The position numbers were made by a program, and so were the translations under genes. From assembly GCF_000719865.1 (NCBI RefSeq), contig NZ_JOID01000003.1:207593-271592 (forward strand): a stretch of DNA of 64,000 bases, read 5' to 3'. The first letter of the stretch is position 1. Each line of letters begins with the position of its first letter. The notes beneath the pieces were generated by a model. The model searched no databases. It had not been told where the DNA came from and saw only the letters and a program-made list of their open reading frames with translations. The stretch comes from Streptomyces albus subsp. albus. GTDB taxonomy: Bacteria > Actinomycetota > Actinomycetes > Streptomycetales > Streptomycetaceae. This document shows positions 5,649-21,982 of the stretch, piece after piece.

Positions 5649-7496
5649 CTAAATCTCGAACTGTCCGGCGATCTGCTGGATCTTGACGACCACGAACTCC
5701 GCGGGCCTGACCGGCGCGAATCCCACGACGACGTTCACCACGCCCTGCGCGATGTCCTGCTCGGTGGTGGTGTCCGCGTCGCATTTCACGTAGTACGCCT
5801 CGCGCGGCGTGCGGCCCTTGAACGCGCCCTGACGGAACAGGGTGTGCAGGAACGACGAGGCGTCGAGCCGGATCTGCTGCCAGAGCTGTTCGCTGTTCGG
5901 CTCGAAGACCACCCACTGCAGCCCGCGGTAGAGGCTCTCCTCGACGTGCAGGGCGAGCCGCCGCACCGGCACGTACTTCCAGTCGCTGTCCAGGCCGTCC
6001 GCGCCCTCCAGGGTGCGGGCCCCCCAGACCAGCGGGCCGAGCACCGGGAAGGTGCGCAGGCAGTTGACGCCCAGCGGGTTGAGGAGGCCGCTCTCCCGGT
6101 CGGTGATCCGCACGGTCAGCGACCGCACGCCGGCCAGCCGGGCCTCCGTGCCCGCCGCGGCCTTCCACACCCCGCGCTCACCGTCCGTACGGGCGGTGAC
6201 GCCGGCGACGGCGCCGGACGGCGGGAAGGCGCGCAGCCGCCCGGTGAGCGGGTCGGTCAGCCGCACCTGCGGGAAGTACAGCGCCGCGTAGTCGCTGCGG
6301 ACCGGGTCGAACGCGGCCAGCCCGGCCCGCGCCCGGTCCACACTGGTCCAGGACGCCGGGGCGTCGACGAGCAGGAAGATCCGCCGCTCCTCGCAGAGCG
6401 CCACCGCCGCCGAGATCACCGTGACCATGTCCTCGGTGGACTCGTACGCCGCCAGCTCGGGCAGCGCCAGCAGGTTGACGTCGTCGGCGTCGCGCAGCGC
6501 GTGCAGCCCCGTCTTGAGGTCCTCGCTGCCGATGAGGTCCTGGGGTCCGGGCGGATCGCCGTCCGCGCCGCCGGTGAGCGGGAAGACGGGCGGATTGACC
6601 GAGCCCTCCAGCCCCAGGTCGTTGGCGCACTCGCCGAGGAACCGGACGGTGTCGCGGGGGTCCGCGGACCCGGCGACCACCTGGATCCGGTTGCCGAAGG
6701 CGGTGGCCTCGGCCCGGGCGAAGGCCCGCTTGCCGGGCGCGTCGGGCAGTGCCCGCAGCTTCCGCTCCAGCAGCAGGGCGAGTTCGGTGACGGTCACCGG
6801 GGCCGGGCCGTCCACCGCGGGGTCGTGCAGGGTGAAGCTGCGCTCCGCCTTGCCGATCTTGACGGTCAGCTCGACGGCCAGGTCGGGCAGTTCGGCCCCG
6901 AACGGCTTCGACACGGTGCCGGACGGATCGGGCCGGCCCTCGCCGGTCACCCGCACCCGCACCAGGTCGGAGCCCTCGTTCACCACGGTCTCCACGAAGC
7001 GCCCGTGACCGGGGTCCATGGACAGACCGGTGTAGCTCTCCCGTGCCTCGCCGTCCGCGTCGGTGATCCGGAGATTGAAGGTCTCGTCCGGGCGCCGGGT
7101 GTCGTGGTCGACGGACACCCGCAGGCCGGAGCCCCAGACACCCGCCTCCCGGGCGGTGACCCGCAGCACCGGGCGGGCGCTGCCGTCCTCGGTGGACTCG
7201 AGCGTGACCTCGGCCTCCTCGCCGGTGCCGGACGCGGCCACGCGCACGATCACCGCGGCGGAGCCGCCGTTGCCGAAGAACTGGTGGACGGCGTGGCCGA
7301 CCGCGCTGCGGGCGGTGAGTCCCCCGAAGCGGCGTTCGAAGTCCGCGAAACTAGTGATCCGCACCGGCTGGTTGAGCGGCCCTCGGCGGGTGTGCCCGAC
7401 GAAGGCGGTCACCGAGGTGGTGACCGCGCCGATGGTGCGGACGCTACTGGGAAGTTCCTCGATGTATACGCCGGGATGGGCCGTTCGCACCGGCAT
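5649..7496 (-). CDS. Contractile tail sheath protein of CIS
   Basis: 615-residue phage tail sheath protein. The N terminus MPVRTAHPGVYIEELPSSVR is the typical sheath handshake strand, and the C terminus (HVEESLYRGLQWVVFEPN; CDADTTTEQDIAQGVV; AEFVVVKIQQ) is the conserved Phage_sheath_1 end. It forms the contractile outer cylinder. I chose ATG 7496 because the conserved MP.RT.HPGVY begins there; an in-frame ATG three codons upstream (7505) is possible. First gene of the visible leftward operon, so the promoter should lie in 7497-8300. The middle third is the variable surface region. Confidence 0.92.
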   Translation of the reverse strand: MPVRTAHPGVYIEELPSSVRTIGAVTTSVTAFVGHTRRGPLNQPVRITSFADFERRFGGLTARSAVGHAVHQFFGNGGSAAVIVRVAASGTGEEAEVTLESTEDGSARPVLRVTAREAGVWGSGLRVSVDHDTRRPDETFNLRITDADGEARESYTGLSMDPGHGRFVETVVNEGSDLVRVRVTGEGRPDPSGTVSKPFGAELPDLAVELTVKIGKAERSFTLHDPAVDGPAPVTVTELALLLERKLRALPDAPGKRAFARAEATAFGNRIQVVAGSADPRDTVRFLGECANDLGLEGSVNPPVFPLTGGADGDPPGPQDLIGSEDLKTGLHALRDADDVNLLALPELAAYESTEDMVTVISAAVALCEERRIFLLVDAPASWTSVDRARAGLAAFDPVRSDYAALYFPQVRLTDPLTGRLRAFPPSGAVAGVTARTDGERGVWKAAAGTEARLAGVRSLTVRITDRESGLLNPLGVNCLRTFPVLGPLVWGARTLEGADGLDSDWKYVPVRRLALHVEESLYRGLQWVVFEPNSEQLWQQIRLDASSFLHTLFRQGAFKGRTPREAYYVKCDADTTTEQDIAQGVVNVVVGFAPVRPAEFVVVKIQQIAGQFEI

Positions 7497-8516: not shown

Positions 8517-9692
8517 GTGGACCTGTTCGAGTATCAGGCGAGGGACCTCTTCGCCAAGCACGGTGTACCGGTGCTGGCCGGTGAAGTGATCGACACGCCT
8601 GAGGCGGCGCGCGAGGTGACCGAGCGTCTCGGCGGCCGCGCGGTCGTCAAGGCGCAGGTCAAGGTCGGTGGCCGCGGCAAGGCCGGCGGCGTGAAGCTGG
8701 CCAAGGACCCGGCCGACGCGGTCGAGAAGGCCGGCCAGATCCTGGGCATGGACATCAAGGGCCACACGGTCCACAAGGTGATGCTGGCCCAGACCGCGGA
8801 GATCAAGGAGGAGTACTACGTCTCCTTCCTGCTGGACCGCACCAACCGCACCTTCCTGGCCATGGCCTCCGTCGAGGGCGGCATGGACATCGAGGAGGTC
8901 GCGGCCACCAAGCCCGAGGCCCTCGCGAAGATCCCGGTGGACGCCAACGAGGGCGTGACCCCCGAGAAGGCCCGCGAGATCGTCGAGGCGGCGAAGTTCC
9001 CCGCCGACGTGGCGGACCAGATCGCCGAGATCCTGCAGACCCTGTGGAAGGCGTTCATCGCCGAGGACGCGCTCCTCGTCGAGGTCAACCCGCTGGCCAA
9101 GACCGGTGACGACGGCAAGGTCCTGGCGCTGGACGGCAAGGTGTCCCTGGACGCCAACGCCGACTTCCGCCAGCCGGACCACGCGGCGCTGGAGGACAAG
9201 GCCGCGGCCGACCCGCTGGAGGCCGCCGCCAAGGCCAAGGGCCTCAACTACGTCAAGCTCGACGGCGAGGTCGGCATCATCGGCAACGGCGCGGGTCTCG
9301 TGATGAGCACCCTGGACGTCGTCGCGTACGCCGGTGAGGCGCACAACAACGTCAAGCCCGCCAACTTCCTCGACATCGGCGGCGGTGCCTCCGCCGAGGT
9401 GATGGCGAACGGCCTGGAGATCATCCTGGGCGACCCGGCCGTCAAGTCCGTCTTCGTCAACGTCTTCGGTGGCATCACCGCCTGTGACGCGGTCGCCAAC
9501 GGCATCGTGCAGGCCCTGGAGCTGCTGAAGTCCAAGGGCGAGGAGGTCGACAAGCCGCTGGTCGTGCGGCTCGACGGCAACAACGCGGAGCTGGGGCGCA
9601 AGATCCTCTCCGACGCGAACCACCCGCTGGTCCAGCAGGTGGACACCATGGACGGTGCGGCCGACCGTGCCGCCGAGCTGGCTGCTAAGTAA
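8517..9692 (+). CDS. sucC: Succinyl-CoA synthetase (ADP-forming) beta subunit
   Basis: 391 residues, the normal length. Makes the nucleotide-binding ATP-grasp half of succinyl-CoA synthetase, which interconverts succinyl-CoA and succinate with substrate-level phosphorylation in the TCA cycle. [19 protein letters not shown] is the family N terminus, and [20 protein letters not shown] is the conserved ATP-grasp stretch. The C-terminal ligase domain includes [14 protein letters not shown] and [15 protein letters not shown]. The GTG start is fixed by this N terminus and an AAGGGA ribosome site about 10 bases upstream. sucD follows after 21 bases, so the two form an operon. Confidence 0.97.
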
Positions 9693-9713
9693 AGGGAACG
9701 GGTCACCAACACC

Positions 9714-10598
9714 ATGGCTATCTTCCTCACCAAGGAAAGCAAGGTCATCGTCCAGGGGATGACCGGCTCCGAGGGCCAGAAGCACACCAAGCGGATGCTT
9801 GCCTCGGGTACGAACATCGTCGGCGGCGTGAACCCGCGCAAGGCGGGCACCAAGGTCGACTTCGACGGCACCGAGGTGCCCGTCTTCGGCTCCGTCAAGG
9901 AGGCCATGGAGGCCACCGGCGCGGACGTCACCGTGATCTTCGTTCCGCCGAAGTTCGCGAAGGACGCGGTCGTCGAGGCGATCGACGCCGAGATCGGTCT
10001 GGCCGTCGTCATCACCGAGGGCATCGCGGTGCACGACACCGCCGCGTTCTGGGCCCACGCCGGCGCCAAGGGCAACAAGACCCGGATCGTCGGCCCCAAC
10101 TGCCCGGGTCTCATCTCCCCCGGACAGTCGAACGCCGGCATCATCCCGGCCGACATCACCAACGCCGGCCGCATCGGCCTGGTCTCGAAGTCGGGCACGC
10201 TGACGTACCAGATGATGTACGAGCTGCGCGACCTGGGCTTCTCGTCGGCCGTCGGCATCGGTGGCGACCCGGTCATCGGCACCACGCACATCGACGCCCT
10301 GGCCGCCTTCGAGGCCGACCCCGACACCGACCTGATCGTGATGATCGGTGAGATCGGCGGCGACGCCGAGGAGCGGGCCGCGGAGTACATCAAGGCGAAC
10401 GTGACGAAGCCGGTCGTCGGCTACGTCGCCGGGTTCACCGCGCCCGAGGGCAAGACCATGGGCCACGCCGGCGCCATCGTCTCCGGCTCCTCCGGCACCG
10501 CGCAGGCGAAGAAGGAGGCCCTGGAGGCCGCGGGTGTGAAGGTCGGCAAGACGCCGTCCGAGACGGCCCGCCTCGCGCGCGCCGCGCTCGCCGGCTGA
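9714..10598 (+). CDS. sucD: Succinyl-CoA synthetase alpha subunit
   Basis: 294 residues. Binds CoA through an N-terminal Rossmann domain and carries the phosphohistidine of the reaction. The active His is in [17 protein letters not shown] (about residue 251). [18 protein letters not shown] and [14 protein letters not shown] are conserved family blocks. It partners with the sucC product from the same operon; a strong hairpin (10666-10712) follows. Length and motifs are intact. Confidence 0.97.
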
Positions 10599-17614: not shown

Positions 17615-18031
17615 TTACTTGCCGCGCAGCGCCTTCCAGGTCTTCGGGCCGACGATGCCGTCCGCCTGGCCCGCCCCCATGTACTTCTTCTGGAACCACT
17701 TGACGTGGCTGCGGGTCTTCGGCCCGAAGACGCCGTCGACGGCGATGTTCGCGGAGCCGGAGGCCGTGTCGTTGATGAGCTTCTGGATCTCCTTGACCCG
17801 CGCGCCCCTGTCGCCGTAGTCGGTGTACGCGCGGCCGGAGTAGTAGCCGCAGTAGAAGCCGATGGTCGAGTGGTAGTAGCAGCTCGCGGCGGCCGAGGCC
17901 GGCGCGGCGGCACCCGCGTGGCCGGAGTCGGTGGCGACGGCCGGGGCGGTGAGCAGCCCGGTGCCCAGGACGGCGGCGCCCAGCGTGATGGCGATGCGCT
18001 GGTGTGCGTTCCGGCGCTTCGGTGCGTTCAT
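17615..18031 (-). CDS. Secreted peptidoglycan-binding domain protein
   Basis: 138 residues. N terminus MNAPKRRNAHQRIAITLGAA followed by a hydrophobic core and an AVA-T cleavage site is a Sec signal peptide. A short Cys/Tyr-rich segment (SCYYHSTIGFYCGYYSG) precedes a PG_binding_1 domain (about 75-137; VKEIQKLIN, VDGVFGPKTRSHVKWFQ, VGPKTWKAL). It should bind peptidoglycan outside the cell; no catalytic domain is present. ATG has AGGGGGA about 8 bases upstream. Divergent from a membrane XRE protein carrying the same domain class, which suggests related biology. Confidence 0.85.
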   Translation of the reverse strand: MNAPKRRNAHQRIAITLGAAVLGTGLLTAPAVATDSGHAGAAAPASAAASCYYHSTIGFYCGYYSGRAYTDYGDRGARVKEIQKLINDTASGSANIAVDGVFGPKTRSHVKWFQKKYMGAGQADGIVGPKTWKALRGK

Positions 18032-18363
18032 GTGACGTATTCCCCCTGTGTGGTCGGGTGGTGGTGCGGAGGGCGGCGCGGGGTGGGCCGCGCCGCCCCT
18101 GGTGCCGAACCGATAGTGCGGGCCATTCCTCGGCGGCGCCACGCCTGCCCGCCGGCCGGGGCGATCGTGGGACGGCACCCGCTCCCACCTGCTGGGACGC
18201 CGCCTGGGACGGTGCGGTGCGGGGACGCGTGCGAGGGCCGGGCCCTGACCGGAACCCGTCGGTTCGGTGCCCGGCGTGAGAAACCCCGTGCCTCGCCGTC
18301 AAGTTCTCGGGCGTGGCGGGGGATAACCTCCCTCCGGGGCTCCGGACGCGGATGAGGTGGAGC

Positions 18364-19206
18364 ATGTCGCGTTGGAAGCAGTTGCCGGACACGCTCGACG
18401 AACGGGCGCGGCAACTGGTGGTGCAGTTGAGACGGCTCAAGGACCGCAGCGGCCTGAGCCTGGTCTCGCTCGGCAGGAAGACCGCGTACAGCCGTTCGTC
18501 CTGGGAGCGCTATCTCAACGGGAAGGCGCTGCCGCCGCGCCAGGCGGTGGAGCAGCTCGCCCGGCTCGGCGGGACGGACCCCACCCGGCTGCTGGTGCTC
18601 CACGAACTCGCCGAGGCGGCCGTCCGCGGGCCCGGCGCAACCCGGGCGGCCGGGAGCGCGGACGCGGAGACGGGCCCGGCGGGGGACGCCACGCGAGCGG
18701 GCGGTGCCGGTCCGGAACCGGCCGGTGAGCCGTCGGCTCCCCGCCGCCGCTCGCGGGCACCGCTGGTGGCCGGTCTCGCGGTGGCGGCCGTGGCCGTCGC
18801 GGCCGCGGTGCTGGTCGCCGCGCCCTGGGAGGACGAGGGCGGCCCGGCCGCCTCCACGCCGGCGCAGGGGAGCCCCTCCGCGCCGGCGGAGCCCTCCGCC
18901 CGGGCGCACGACGGTCCGTACGTCTACGAACCGGGCCGCACCTACCACTGCGACGTGCGCCGCGAGAACGGCCTCCTCGGCGCGGGGCACAGCGCGACCC
19001 GCGACGCCGTGCTCCAGACCTCCACCACCGGCTGGGACGTCGTGGAGGCCCAGTGCCTGCTGAAGCACCACGGCTTCTCCCCGGGCGGCATCGACGGCAT
19101 CTACGGTGATCTGACGACCCGGGCCGTCAAGCGCATCCAGGACAAGCACGGGCTCGTGGTCGACGGCAAGGTCGGCCCGCACACCTGGGGAGTGCTGCGC
19201 CGATGA
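18364..19206 (+). CDS. XRE HTH-transmembrane-peptidoglycan-binding protein
   Basis: 280 residues with an unusual layout: a cytoplasmic XRE-type helix-turn-helix (about 18-65; GLSLVSLGRKTAYSRSSWER), a Pro/Ala/Gly linker, one membrane segment (about 134-153), a Ser/Pro linker, and an extracytoplasmic PG_binding_1 domain (about 222-278; VVEAQCLLKHHGF, IDGIYGDLTTRAVKRIQ, VDGKVGPHTW). This could let a DNA-binding protein report on cell-wall state. Start ATG 18364 is chosen because the third gene of the set begins with the matching MPRWK; an in-frame ATG 12 bases upstream exists. Overlaps the next gene by ATGA. Confidence 0.82.
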   Translation: MSRWKQLPDTLDERARQLVVQLRRLKDRSGLSLVSLGRKTAYSRSSWERYLNGKALPPRQAVEQLARLGGTDPTRLLVLHELAEAAVRGPGATRAAGSADAETGPAGDATRAGGAGPEPAGEPSAPRRRSRAPLVAGLAVAAVAVAAAVLVAAPWEDEGGPAASTPAQGSPSAPAEPSARAHDGPYVYEPGRTYHCDVRRENGLLGAGHSATRDAVLQTSTTGWDVVEAQCLLKHHGFSPGGIDGIYGDLTTRAVKRIQDKHGLVVDGKVGPHTWGVLRR

Positions 19207-20249
19207 CCGGCAGCGCGGGACACCCCCGCCCGCCCGCGCGGGAGCGCGAGCCCGCCGCCCGGCCGCCCGGGCAGGCTCCCGAATGCGCCCGTCTGGCCGA
19301 GGAGTTGCGGGACCTGCGGAAGAGGACGGGGCTCAGCCTCGCGGCGCTGGCGGAGCGGACCCCCTACAGCAAGTCCTCCTGGGAGCGGTATCTCAACGGG
19401 AAGAAGCAGGTGCCGCGGCAGGCCGTGGAAGCGTTGTGCCGGCTCGCCGGGGAGCGCCCGGACCGGCTGCTCGTGCTGTGGGACCTGGCCGACGCCGAAT
19501 GGAGCGGCCGCGGAGCCTCCGTGACGACCCCGGCGGCGGCCGGAACGGCCGGCGGAGACACGGCTTCCGGAGGGACCGGTGCCGAAGGCACCGCTGCCGG
19601 AGAGATCGCGGCCGGAGAGACCGGGAACCGGGACGCCGGGGGAGCGGTGGCCGGACGACCGGCCGCCCCGGAGGCCGCCGGCGGCCTGTTCCGGTGGCCG
19701 TACCCGACCCGGCGGCGGACAGCCGTCCTCGCCGCCCTCTGCGTGACCGCCGCGGTCGCGGGCGCGCTGGCGCTCGGCGGCATCCGGCCCGGCGGCACCG
19801 AGCGGGAGGCAGCCGCGGGGAGTTCCACCTCCGCGACACCGAGCCCGCCGCCGCCGGGCTGCCGCGGCGCGGCGTGCGACGGCAAGGACCCGGAGAGCAT
19901 GGGCTGCGGGATCACCGTGCGGACCCTCGGCGGCCACCGCACGGCCCGGGGAGCGGGCATGGAGATCCGCTACAGCGAACGCTGCGGTGCCGCGTGGGCC
20001 CGGATCTGGCAGTCGCGCGTCGGGGACCGGGTCCGGATCACCGCCCCGGGCGGCCGTTTCCAGCAGGCCGCGGTGGCCGACCGGTACGACGCCGAGGGCT
20101 ATGTCTACACACCGATGATCGGAGCCGGAGTGCGGTCCGCCCTCCGTGCCTGCCACCTCCCGGCCCCGGGCGGGGAGCGCGAGTGCTTCGACACCACCGC
20201 GGACGGGGAGGAGACCGGGGATCCGGCCGCCGGCGCGGACGCGACCTGA
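19203..20249 (+). CDS. XRE HTH-transmembrane-DUF2690 protein
   Basis: 348 residues, paralogue of its neighbours. XRE helix-turn-helix at about 28-78 (GLSLAALAERTPYSKSSWER then YLNGKKQVPR), an Ala/Gly linker, a membrane segment at about 173-193, then an extracytoplasmic DUF2690 domain (about 219-335) with CRGAACDGKDPESMGCG at its start, further conserved GMEIRYSERCGAAWARI, and a late Cys pair. The cysteines probably form disulphides outside the cell. Coupled to the upstream gene by an ATGA overlap. Ligand and DNA target unknown. Confidence 0.82.
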   Translation: MTGSAGHPRPPAREREPAARPPGQAPECARLAEELRDLRKRTGLSLAALAERTPYSKSSWERYLNGKKQVPRQAVEALCRLAGERPDRLLVLWDLADAEWSGRGASVTTPAAAGTAGGDTASGGTGAEGTAAGEIAAGETGNRDAGGAVAGRPAAPEAAGGLFRWPYPTRRRTAVLAALCVTAAVAGALALGGIRPGGTEREAAAGSSTSATPSPPPPGCRGAACDGKDPESMGCGITVRTLGGHRTARGAGMEIRYSERCGAAWARIWQSRVGDRVRITAPGGRFQQAAVADRYDAEGYVYTPMIGAGVRSALRACHLPAPGGERECFDTTADGEETGDPAAGADAT

Positions 20250-20800
20250 CGGGCCGCGGCGCCCCCCGCCTTCGGGGCCCTCGGTCCGACGCCGTCAATC
20301 CCCGTATTCGCGCCACGCGTTGACCTGTTGACCCGTCGAGCCCTCGTGTCCCGGTGGGCGGCGGAGCCCGTCCCCTCCCCCGAGCAGGACGAGCTCCGCC
20401 TGCCTCCGAGCCTCTTCGTCCGCGTGTTCGGGATCAAGAGTCAGGGGTGCTCTGTGGCCCGGAGGTGACGGTTCCGGCACGTCGTGATCATGCTGTGCGC
20501 GGTGTGTCGGGAGTCGGTAACGGCTCGGCACGGCCGTGTCCCGGTCCCGCCCGGTCCCGCCCGGTCCCGCACCGTCCCTCGCCCGCGGCCCAACCCGTCC
20601 CGAACGGCACGGATGCGGGCGTACCGCCGCCGGTGCGGGGGGTGATCCGGGGCCCTCGCGTCCCGAACCGGGAACACCCGTGTCGCCGCCGTGGAGGAAC
20701 TGACATCCTGATCCCGAACATCCTTGACGGCAGGCGGTGTTACTGGGAGGTGCACCGCCGCCGGGTACGTGTGCACATGCGGGGGGAACAGGGGGAGGCA
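20250..20800. other. Spacer between XRE membrane genes
   Basis: 551 bases with no gene I can support. It contains three perfect 10-base repeats CCGGTCCCGC at 20541-20570 and two TTGACC sextets near 20320-20333 without a matching -10. The promoter of the third XRE gene is expected here, but I cannot place it. Confidence 0.5.
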
Positions 20801-21982
20801 ATGCCTCGTTGGAAGGTGCTGCCGGAGGAACTGGACCCGCAGATACGGGAGTTCACCGGACAGCTCCGCCGGATCGTCGAACTGAGCGGTCTGGGGGTCG
20901 GGTCCGTCGCGGACCGCACCGGCTACAGCAAGACCTCGTGGGACCGCTATCTGAACGGACGTCTGCTGCCGCCGCTCGGCGCCGTGGTGGCGCTGGCCGA
21001 GGTGACGGGCTACGCCATCGGGCCGCTCACGGCCCAGTGGGAGCGGGCCGAGGCGGCGTGGGCCCGCGCCGAGGCCGGGCAGGAGCCCGCCACGGAGCCG
21101 CCGCCGGACCCGGCGCCGGGCCGGACGGCGTCCGGGCACGCCCCGCCCGGACCCGGGCCGGAAGACGCGCCGCCCGGCCGGTCGACTCCCGGTCGCGGGA
21201 CACCCGGACGGCCGGCCGGTCATGCCGGTCCCGGCCGGACGGCTTCGGAGCGCCCGGACCCCGGGTATCCGACCCCGGACACCGTCGCGCTGTCCGTCGT
21301 GACCGCCCCGGCCGGGCCGGGCGGGGGCCGCGACGCGCGCTCCGGCTCCGGCCCGCGGCCCGGCGGCGGTGCCCGGCGTGCGCTGCTGTTCGGTCTCGGG
21401 CTGGCCGGGGCGCTGGCCGCGGCCGCCGGCGCGGTCTTCTTCCTCGACCTCGGTGACGATGCCCCGGCGGACGGCAAGGCCCGGGTCGCCACCACGCCGG
21501 CGTCCACCCCGGAGCAGGAGCGGACGGAACTCCCGGAGGGCGTCACCTGCTCCGGTGACGACTGCACGGGTGAGGACCCGGAGGAGCAGGGCTGCGGCGG
21601 CGAACATGCCGGTACGGTCACGGAGTTGCGGGTCGGCGCGGCGTTCGTCGAGATGCGGCACAGCGAGGTCTGCGGCGCGGTCTGGGCGCGGATCACCGAG
21701 GCGGCCCCCGGCGACTCGGTGCGGGTGGCCGTGGGAGAGCGGAGCGAGAGCTCGGAGGTCGCGGCCGGGACGGGGACACAGCCCGGGGTGACGGAGGCGT
21801 ACACCCGGATGGTGGCCGCCGAGCGGCCGTCCGACGCCGAGGTCTGCGCCACCACGGCCGCGGGCGAGAAGGGCTGCGCGCGGCCCGGCGCCGCGGAGGG
21901 CTCCGCGACGTCCGCCCCGCCGGGCGACGGGACCGGGACCGGGGCACCCCCGACCCCGGCAGCTCCGCCCGCCGAGGGGTAA
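20801..21982 (+). CDS. XRE HTH-transmembrane-DUF2690 protein
   Basis: 393 residues. MPRWKVLPEELDPQIREFTG leads into an XRE helix-turn-helix (about 20-65; GVGSVADRTGYSKTSWDRYL). A long Pro/Gly/Arg linker (about 85-190) precedes one membrane segment (LLFGLGLAGALAAAAGAVFF). The extracytoplasmic DUF2690 domain starts VTCSGDDCTGEDPEEQGCGG and has FVEMRHSEVCGAVWARITE, followed by a Pro/Gly tail. ATG 20801 has GGGGGAGG directly upstream. Third member of the local family but separately transcribed. Function unknown. Confidence 0.82.
   Translation: MPRWKVLPEELDPQIREFTGQLRRIVELSGLGVGSVADRTGYSKTSWDRYLNGRLLPPLGAVVALAEVTGYAIGPLTAQWERAEAAWARAEAGQEPATEPPPDPAPGRTASGHAPPGPGPEDAPPGRSTPGRGTPGRPAGHAGPGRTASERPDPGYPTPDTVALSVVTAPAGPGGGRDARSGSGPRPGGGARRALLFGLGLAGALAAAAGAVFFLDLGDDAPADGKARVATTPASTPEQERTELPEGVTCSGDDCTGEDPEEQGCGGEHAGTVTELRVGAAFVEMRHSEVCGAVWARITEAAPGDSVRVAVGERSESSEVAAGTGTQPGVTEAYTRMVAAERPSDAEVCATTAAGEKGCARPGAAEGSATSAPPGDGTGTGAPPTPAAPPAEG

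Follow-up and report, generated by a model that had tools for sequence, protein, structure and literature searches.

The window analysed here is the whole stretch of 64,000 nucleotides from Streptomyces albus subsp. albus (contig NZ_JOID01000003.1, positions 207,593 to 271,592), and the locus of interest occupies positions 17615–21982 of it. Two genes on the plus strand, A (18364–19206, 280 aa) and B (19203–20249, 348 aa), encode proteins with a helix-turn-helix (HTH) domain, one membrane segment and an outer domain. In A, HTH_31 (residues 17–75, E 3.9e-14) is followed by the membrane segment (about 134–152) and PG_binding_1 (225–278, E 2.1e-16); in B, the order is HTH_31 (E 6.7e-16), membrane segment (about 174–192) and DUF2690 (E 5.9e-18). 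The stop of A and the start of B share the ATGA at 19203–19206. Gene D (17615–18031, minus strand), divergent from A, encodes a small secreted protein, whose start resembles a signal peptide and which carries PG_binding_1 (E 7.6e-12). The starts were placed at 18031 for D and 18364 for A; the longest open reading frames (ORFs) would use upstream starts. The ATGA coupling and a divergent secreted neighbour of the same peptidoglycan-binding class had both been claimed in an original prediction made from the sequence of the window, and both are borne out. The D–A intergenic region (18032–18363), which that prediction did not mention, is the most telling part of the locus and holds a 36-bp operator (CGTGGGACGTCCCAC..CTGACCTGC..GGGACG). 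The unit is D–operator–A–B.

Relatives of the locus were sought with an alignment of 27 A proteins as query, which yielded 360. The 80 that ranked best belong to Streptomyces, Wenjunlia, Actinacidiphila and Embleya and, together with the window and a second A–B copy in the same genome, form a set of 82 loci; for upstream regions, a duplicate (L046) and a too-short contig (L077) were excluded, leaving 80. The commonest 10-mers upstream of A are pieces of a palindrome. GGGACGTCCC is present in 42 of the 80 upstream regions against 9 of 2918 background tiles, and TGGGACG in 68 against 8.4% of tiles. Iteration of the motif gave the 36-bp element CGTGGGACGTCCCACGCGCTGACCTGCGGGGACGCC, which scores above 10 bits in 71/80 loci and consists of the palindrome TGGGACGTCCCA plus additional GGGACG half-sites. 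In a held-out test, with the matrix for each locus built from loci whose A is less than 55% identical (at least 19 sites), 72/80 loci outscore all 100 control tiles and 70/80 exceed 10 bits. The window copy lies at 18166–18201 (plus strand), with the left half of the palindrome intact and the right half degraded. It scores 30.8 bits with a matrix built without the window and its nearest relative (L017); the runner-up on both strands of the 64 kb scores −4.7. TGGGACG half-sites begin at 18168 and 18193 inside the operator, and an extra one is located at 18205–18211 (plus strand).

The operator is private. A scan of the 6.94-Mb genome, using a 60-site model that includes the second A–B copy and excludes the window, ranks the two A–B loci highest (40.9 bits for the second copy and 25.9 bits, E 7.8e-5, for the window), followed by a partial site of 17.7 bits. 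Among 61 genomes of the genus there are 27 matches, 16 of them at A–B loci (15 upstream of A and one downstream of B) and five away from A–B, each beside a small secreted gene. Four others read as coding sequence that we take to be recF-like (three were translated; at the fourth, L151, the site is almost identical), and the remaining two fall in another coding frame (L154) and at a place with no secreted gene (L135). Several of these genomes seem identical with those whose loci are behind the operator model, so the scan is a test of specificity, and the genomes do not count as an independent sample. At their own locus, 18 of the 20 A copies in these genomes carry the operator, counting weaker local matches in G048 and G024. 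Within the 80 loci, seven sites above 10 bits occur among 2.6 million positions outside the A upstream region. Each of the five strongest is oriented as at D towards a further small secreted gene that lies downstream of B, at a distance of about 103–133 bp counted from the distal end of the 36-bp element; L090 and L074 do not fit this pattern. At L158 (G014:C269, 2143–6401), an operator of 32.4 bits and a secreted gene adjoin an HTH-only gene lacking PG_binding_1, followed by C, a third HTH gene described below; this is possibly a variant or remnant of the module. A genome-wide regulon of the palindrome was considered and rejected. Exact TGGGACGTCCCA occurs once in the window's genome, sites with at most one mismatch number 10 against 15 for the reversed control, and the 61 genomes hold 14 exact copies (five upstream of A) against 10 for the reversed control.

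A and B are a fixed module. The 4-bp NTGA overlap is kept throughout, the stop of A sitting in ATGA or GTGA in 82/82 loci, and an intact HTH–DUF2690 protein starts inside the overlap in 75/82. In two of the other seven loci (L035 and L074) the HTH and DUF2690 parts of B are in different frames; in five (L039, L042, L061, L066 and L095) the frame is interrupted or decayed. A protein matching A at E 1e-40 is found in 10 of 246 class-wide genomes, all from the genus of the window (one of 103 genera), and the 61 genomes of that genus hold 20 copies in 19 genomes, three given as split matches. The constant overlap, the mostly intact B and the patchy occurrence together describe an accessory but very tight pair. 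Neighbourhood conservation, whose absence was to refute the original prediction, therefore holds for A–B, whereas the domain shuffling it proposed finds no support in A and B: their architectures are fixed, and the secreted D is what is exchanged. In the second A–B copy of the window's genome (L014, 4973–7899; C1 of that genome) the operator palindrome is perfect, and the two divergent genes for small secreted proteins are both of other types than the D of the window.

D is exchangeable and would be the secreted output behind a constant signal peptide type, operator and pair of regulators. Divergent small secreted neighbours adjoin 51 of 78 A genes (L052 and L061 also excluded here) against 69 of 467 control genes, and at a gap of 250–400 bp the counts are 40/78 and 15/467. 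Signal peptides were called by a simple in-script rule, not SignalP, and it is this rule that scores 69 of the 467 controls as having a secreted-looking ORF. The operator–D distance has a median of 126.5 bp (46 loci). The 82 loci contain 52 D candidates, of which 49 were analysed (L026, L062 and L076 were left out); by their mature parts these fall into 15 BLAST clusters. Pfam at E 0.01 assigns 19 to PG_binding_1, three to peptidase inhibitor I36, two to alpha-amylase inhibitor (one above cut-off, both within a cluster of nine) and one to YkuD, with no convincing family at that threshold for the rest. Signal peptides, by comparison, are related across clusters (mean score 29.5 against 8.3 for control secreted proteins). 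At one chromosomal position, between folD and mdh, six different D clusters occur among nine loci; L032 and L050, both there, have D proteins of different clusters and A proteins 74% identical. In the window's genome itself, the D of one copy is a PG_binding_1 protein and that of the other belongs to the amylase-inhibitor-like cluster. In L014, L039, L047 and L052 a second secreted family (VFVIAPNRxIWHTWKNAGGWKEMPG) adjoins the amylase-inhibitor-like D. DUF2690 also occurs as a stand-alone, secreted-looking small protein (L015 from 3169 and L076 at 6370–6861, minus strand); both outer domain families thus exist as small secreted proteins.

Between the operator and D, a perfect 11-bp inverted repeat with a 6-nt loop is located at 18071–18098 (minus strand). 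Such a repeat precedes D in 36 of 81 loci, the window and 35 others (repeats in L035 and L068 looked spurious and were excluded). Six of the 11 stem pairs change on both sides across 14 distinct sequences, a number reached in 0/500 shuffles, and the loop is invariant as [U/C]CCACC. The window copy folds with −37.4 kcal/mol (z −2.64), and Rfam holds no counterpart. The repeat is probably a leader hairpin, although a DNA dyad would covary alike. The loop is complementary to GGGGUGGA, the ribosome site of many A genes. Closer to A, GGAACC at 18251–18256 (plus strand) resembles the −35 element of extracytoplasmic function (ECF) promoters. GGAACY is present in 38/80 upstream regions against a shuffle mean of 14.3, and GGAACY-N16/17-CATC in 15/80 loci against 18 of 14046 tiles, at about −60 to −90 from A; CGTC at 16–17 bp from GGAACY occurs in 0/80. 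For the window GGAACC no matching −10 was found, the best candidate being poor. These patterns hint that part of the family, the window not included, uses an ECF sigma factor, and control of the window copy by Sigma-E was rejected, as the GGAACC at 18251 is without a matching −10.

In the AlphaFold model of A (mean pLDDT 80.6), the HTH domain (about 13–88) and the outer domain (about 185–280) are ordered, with low-confidence linkers and a helix (135–152) between them. Foldseek matches the outer part to peptidoglycan-binding proteins, such as the N-domain of SleB, and the HTH to XRE proteins that bind DNA, among them C.AhdI, BldD, SinR and lambda repressor (TM by target 0.55–0.73, E about 0.03; E is below 0.001 for the top row only). 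By sequence match (Pfam) and fold (Foldseek), the domain belongs to the XRE/HTH_31 family. For DUF2690 of B the predicted fold is a compact beta sandwich, and its outside cysteines are conserved. The recognition helix YS[RK][ST]SW[ED]RYLNG is nearly the same in most of the A, B and C proteins; five of the 82 A proteins and four of the 75 B proteins deviate from this pattern. Its alignment with a derivative of the 434 repressor is weak (E 0.83).

Gene C (20801–21982, plus strand, 393 aa) encodes HTH_31 (E 5.8e-10), a membrane segment (about 195–213) and DUF2690 (E 1.8e-9). The Pfam matches of A, B, C and D are all above curated cut-offs, and in each of A, B and C arginines precede the single strong hydrophobic segment. 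The three genes are paralogous with differing outer domains, PG_binding_1 in A and DUF2690 in B and C, as the original prediction had stated; its trio is not supported. C follows B after a gap of 551 bp, is not coupled and adjoins A–B in only 24/82 loci (L046 duplicates L045; L043 is omitted, its A passing the threshold of the C model). The operator is missing upstream of C, where even the half-site TGGGACG is present in just one of the 24 (L095), and C was ruled out as a module member on these two counts. Its occurrence goes with the chromosomal position: in the window, the genes are flanked by mdh at one end and by folD with a DUF3017 gene at the other, 23 of the 24 loci with C have folD and/or mdh (the other is on a short contig), and 23 of the 25 loci with folD have C. 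C has the same recognition helix and so may recognise a related site; beyond this, it has no tie to the module. L073 has an additional A-type HTH frame (9591–10514) between B and C. Another HTH protein of the window's genome (L011, C19:17122–17337) combines a hydrophobic segment with an outer part of another kind, and the HTH–membrane architecture thus extends beyond the A–B module.

We regard it as reasonably probable that A and B are transmembrane transcription regulators (TTRs) that bind the operator and control D and their own operon. As translationally coupled single-pass regulators, they would be produced in step. Through their N-terminal HTH domains of XRE type, whose recognition helices are almost identical, they would bind the private 36-bp operator, probably as a hetero-oligomer at the membrane; the palindrome would suit a dimer of such a domain. 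The outer PG_binding_1 domain of A should hold peptidoglycan and would tether the complex to it, and the disulfide-rich DUF2690 of B would report the state of the wall or a ligand. Peptidoglycan sensing is plausible, its only grounds being the PG_binding_1 label of the outer domain of A and the proposal in the original prediction. The complex would control D and the A–B operon in either direction, by induction or repression, and the mature part of D would have been replaced in evolution by unrelated folds, with the signal peptide type, operator and regulators retained. The direct action on DNA that had been predicted gains support from the conserved operator found with the locus, A and B being its presumed binders. 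A more tentative extension, to which we give somewhat less than even weight, is an "effector socket": a fixed, peptidoglycan-tethered pair of DNA-binding receptors that, with its private operator and leader hairpin, would accept unrelated secreted proteins in the course of evolution. Any exported protein in the socket, or with the operator at another place, would come under cell-wall control. Its contents would be wall binders, protease- and amylase-inhibitor-like folds and an L,D-transpeptidase-like protein.

Several points weigh against the main reading of A and B. That they bind the operator we infer from co-occurrence, and two of the 20 A copies (G013 and G045) lack a local operator. In the window, a plain search for the 14-bp palindrome (at most three mismatches) gave two sites, where shuffles lead one to expect 10.4. 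Seven of the 82 loci have an interrupted or decayed B. No D candidate is present in 30/82 loci; of 28 such loci 23 keep the operator, which fits control of A–B itself. Deviation of the recognition helix is only weakly related to the operator score (Mann–Whitney p 0.054; Spearman −0.23, p 0.04, not tree-corrected), and that score follows the overall divergence of A more closely (0.40).

The weak relation of helix and operator also bears on an unlikely alternative, in which another regulator owns the operator, A–B are among its targets just as D is, and the HTH domains make protein contacts in a RodZ-like, wall-linked scaffold. HTH domains on membrane proteins can indeed be scaffolds, as in RodZ, and the operator persists where B is broken (e.g., L039, L042 and L066). 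Against another owner, 22 of the 27 matches in the 61 genomes are in A-carrying genomes, the five exceptions being the four recF-like readings and the site in G014 by an HTH gene and a secreted gene, and both the recognition helix and the XRE fold are well preserved. Still less probable is a self-limiting loop in which the main signal for A and B is the secreted D itself, or in which D and the pair compete for sites on the wall. Its appeal is that 19 of the 49 D proteins are PG_binding_1, the outer family of A, and that secreted DUF2690 ORFs occur near L076 and elsewhere in the window's genome; yet the outer families of A and B stay constant while D changes fold, so a specific contact with D would be hard to maintain. 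That D is an unrelated neighbour and A–B regulate themselves alone is very improbable: the loci without a D candidate, most still with the operator, would suit it, but it is opposed by the enrichment of secreted neighbours, the constant D spacing, the related signal peptides on unrelated D proteins and the off-locus operators beside other small secreted genes.

A and B can be compared with several known systems. RodZ is similar in having a cytoplasmic HTH, one membrane segment, an outer domain and a link to the wall. The HTH of RodZ is a scaffold that binds MreB, and its domains are HTH_25 and DUF4115; a Pfam scan that allowed E up to 10 reports neither of them in any of the three proteins A, B and C. 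ToxR has a winged-helix DNA-binding domain, whereas that of A and B is of XRE type. In ToxR/ToxS-type pairs the partner lacks a DNA-binding domain; A–B is not such a pair, since B has its own HTH_31. BcrR of enterococci has an XRE-type HTH, several membrane segments and no outer domain. Like A and B, it is a membrane-bound one-component regulator of a Gram-positive organism with a link to cell-wall antibiotics; unlike them, it governs a resistance transporter and not a secreted protein. BcrR is listed in Table 1 of a survey of TTRs (PMC10269533), which defines these, in the part available, as single proteins that combine a predicted DNA-binding domain with one or more predicted membrane segments. 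A, B and C have this architecture, with HTH_31 above cut-off and a membrane segment; control of transcription from the membrane is predicted for A and B, with the conserved operator at their loci as an indirect sign. Single-pass types are the commonest in that survey, and ToxR/ToxS, TcpP/TcpH, VtrA/VtrC and CadC represent TTRs with partner genes; in its available parts, Table 1 has no Streptomyces among the characterised members, and XRE, peptidoglycan and Actinobacteria never occur in the main text. For the Sigma-E envelope stress regulon of Streptomyces coelicolor, the available part of PMC6767563 gives a GGAAC-type −35 and a 16–17 bp spacer, which part of the A promoters resemble; they differ in their −10, which is CATC (never CGTC at this spacing), and the window has neither. 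The A–B pair was not identified in the available part of Table 1 of that paper.

No description of this system was found by targeted searches of open-access literature, a coverage outside which most subscription papers fall, and our data suggest an undescribed mode of controlling an exchangeable exported protein. If true, Streptomyces would have a membrane regulator with a defined operator and a measurable output, making wall-to-DNA signalling testable in antibiotic producers. With its products swapped while the switch stays the same, the locus resembles a modular slot for exported effectors; this would give access to many small secreted proteins that have had no study, and to DUF2690. From what is available of the TTR survey, A and B share with known TTRs the predicted DNA-binding domain, the single membrane segment, the outer domain and the often coupled partner. 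They differ from TTR pairs in having an HTH in both partners, PG_binding_1 and DUF2690 outside, a private operator and an exchangeable secreted gene. Membrane-bound one-component regulators are already well known; new here would be the double-HTH pair, its wall-binding domain, the private operator and the swappable output.

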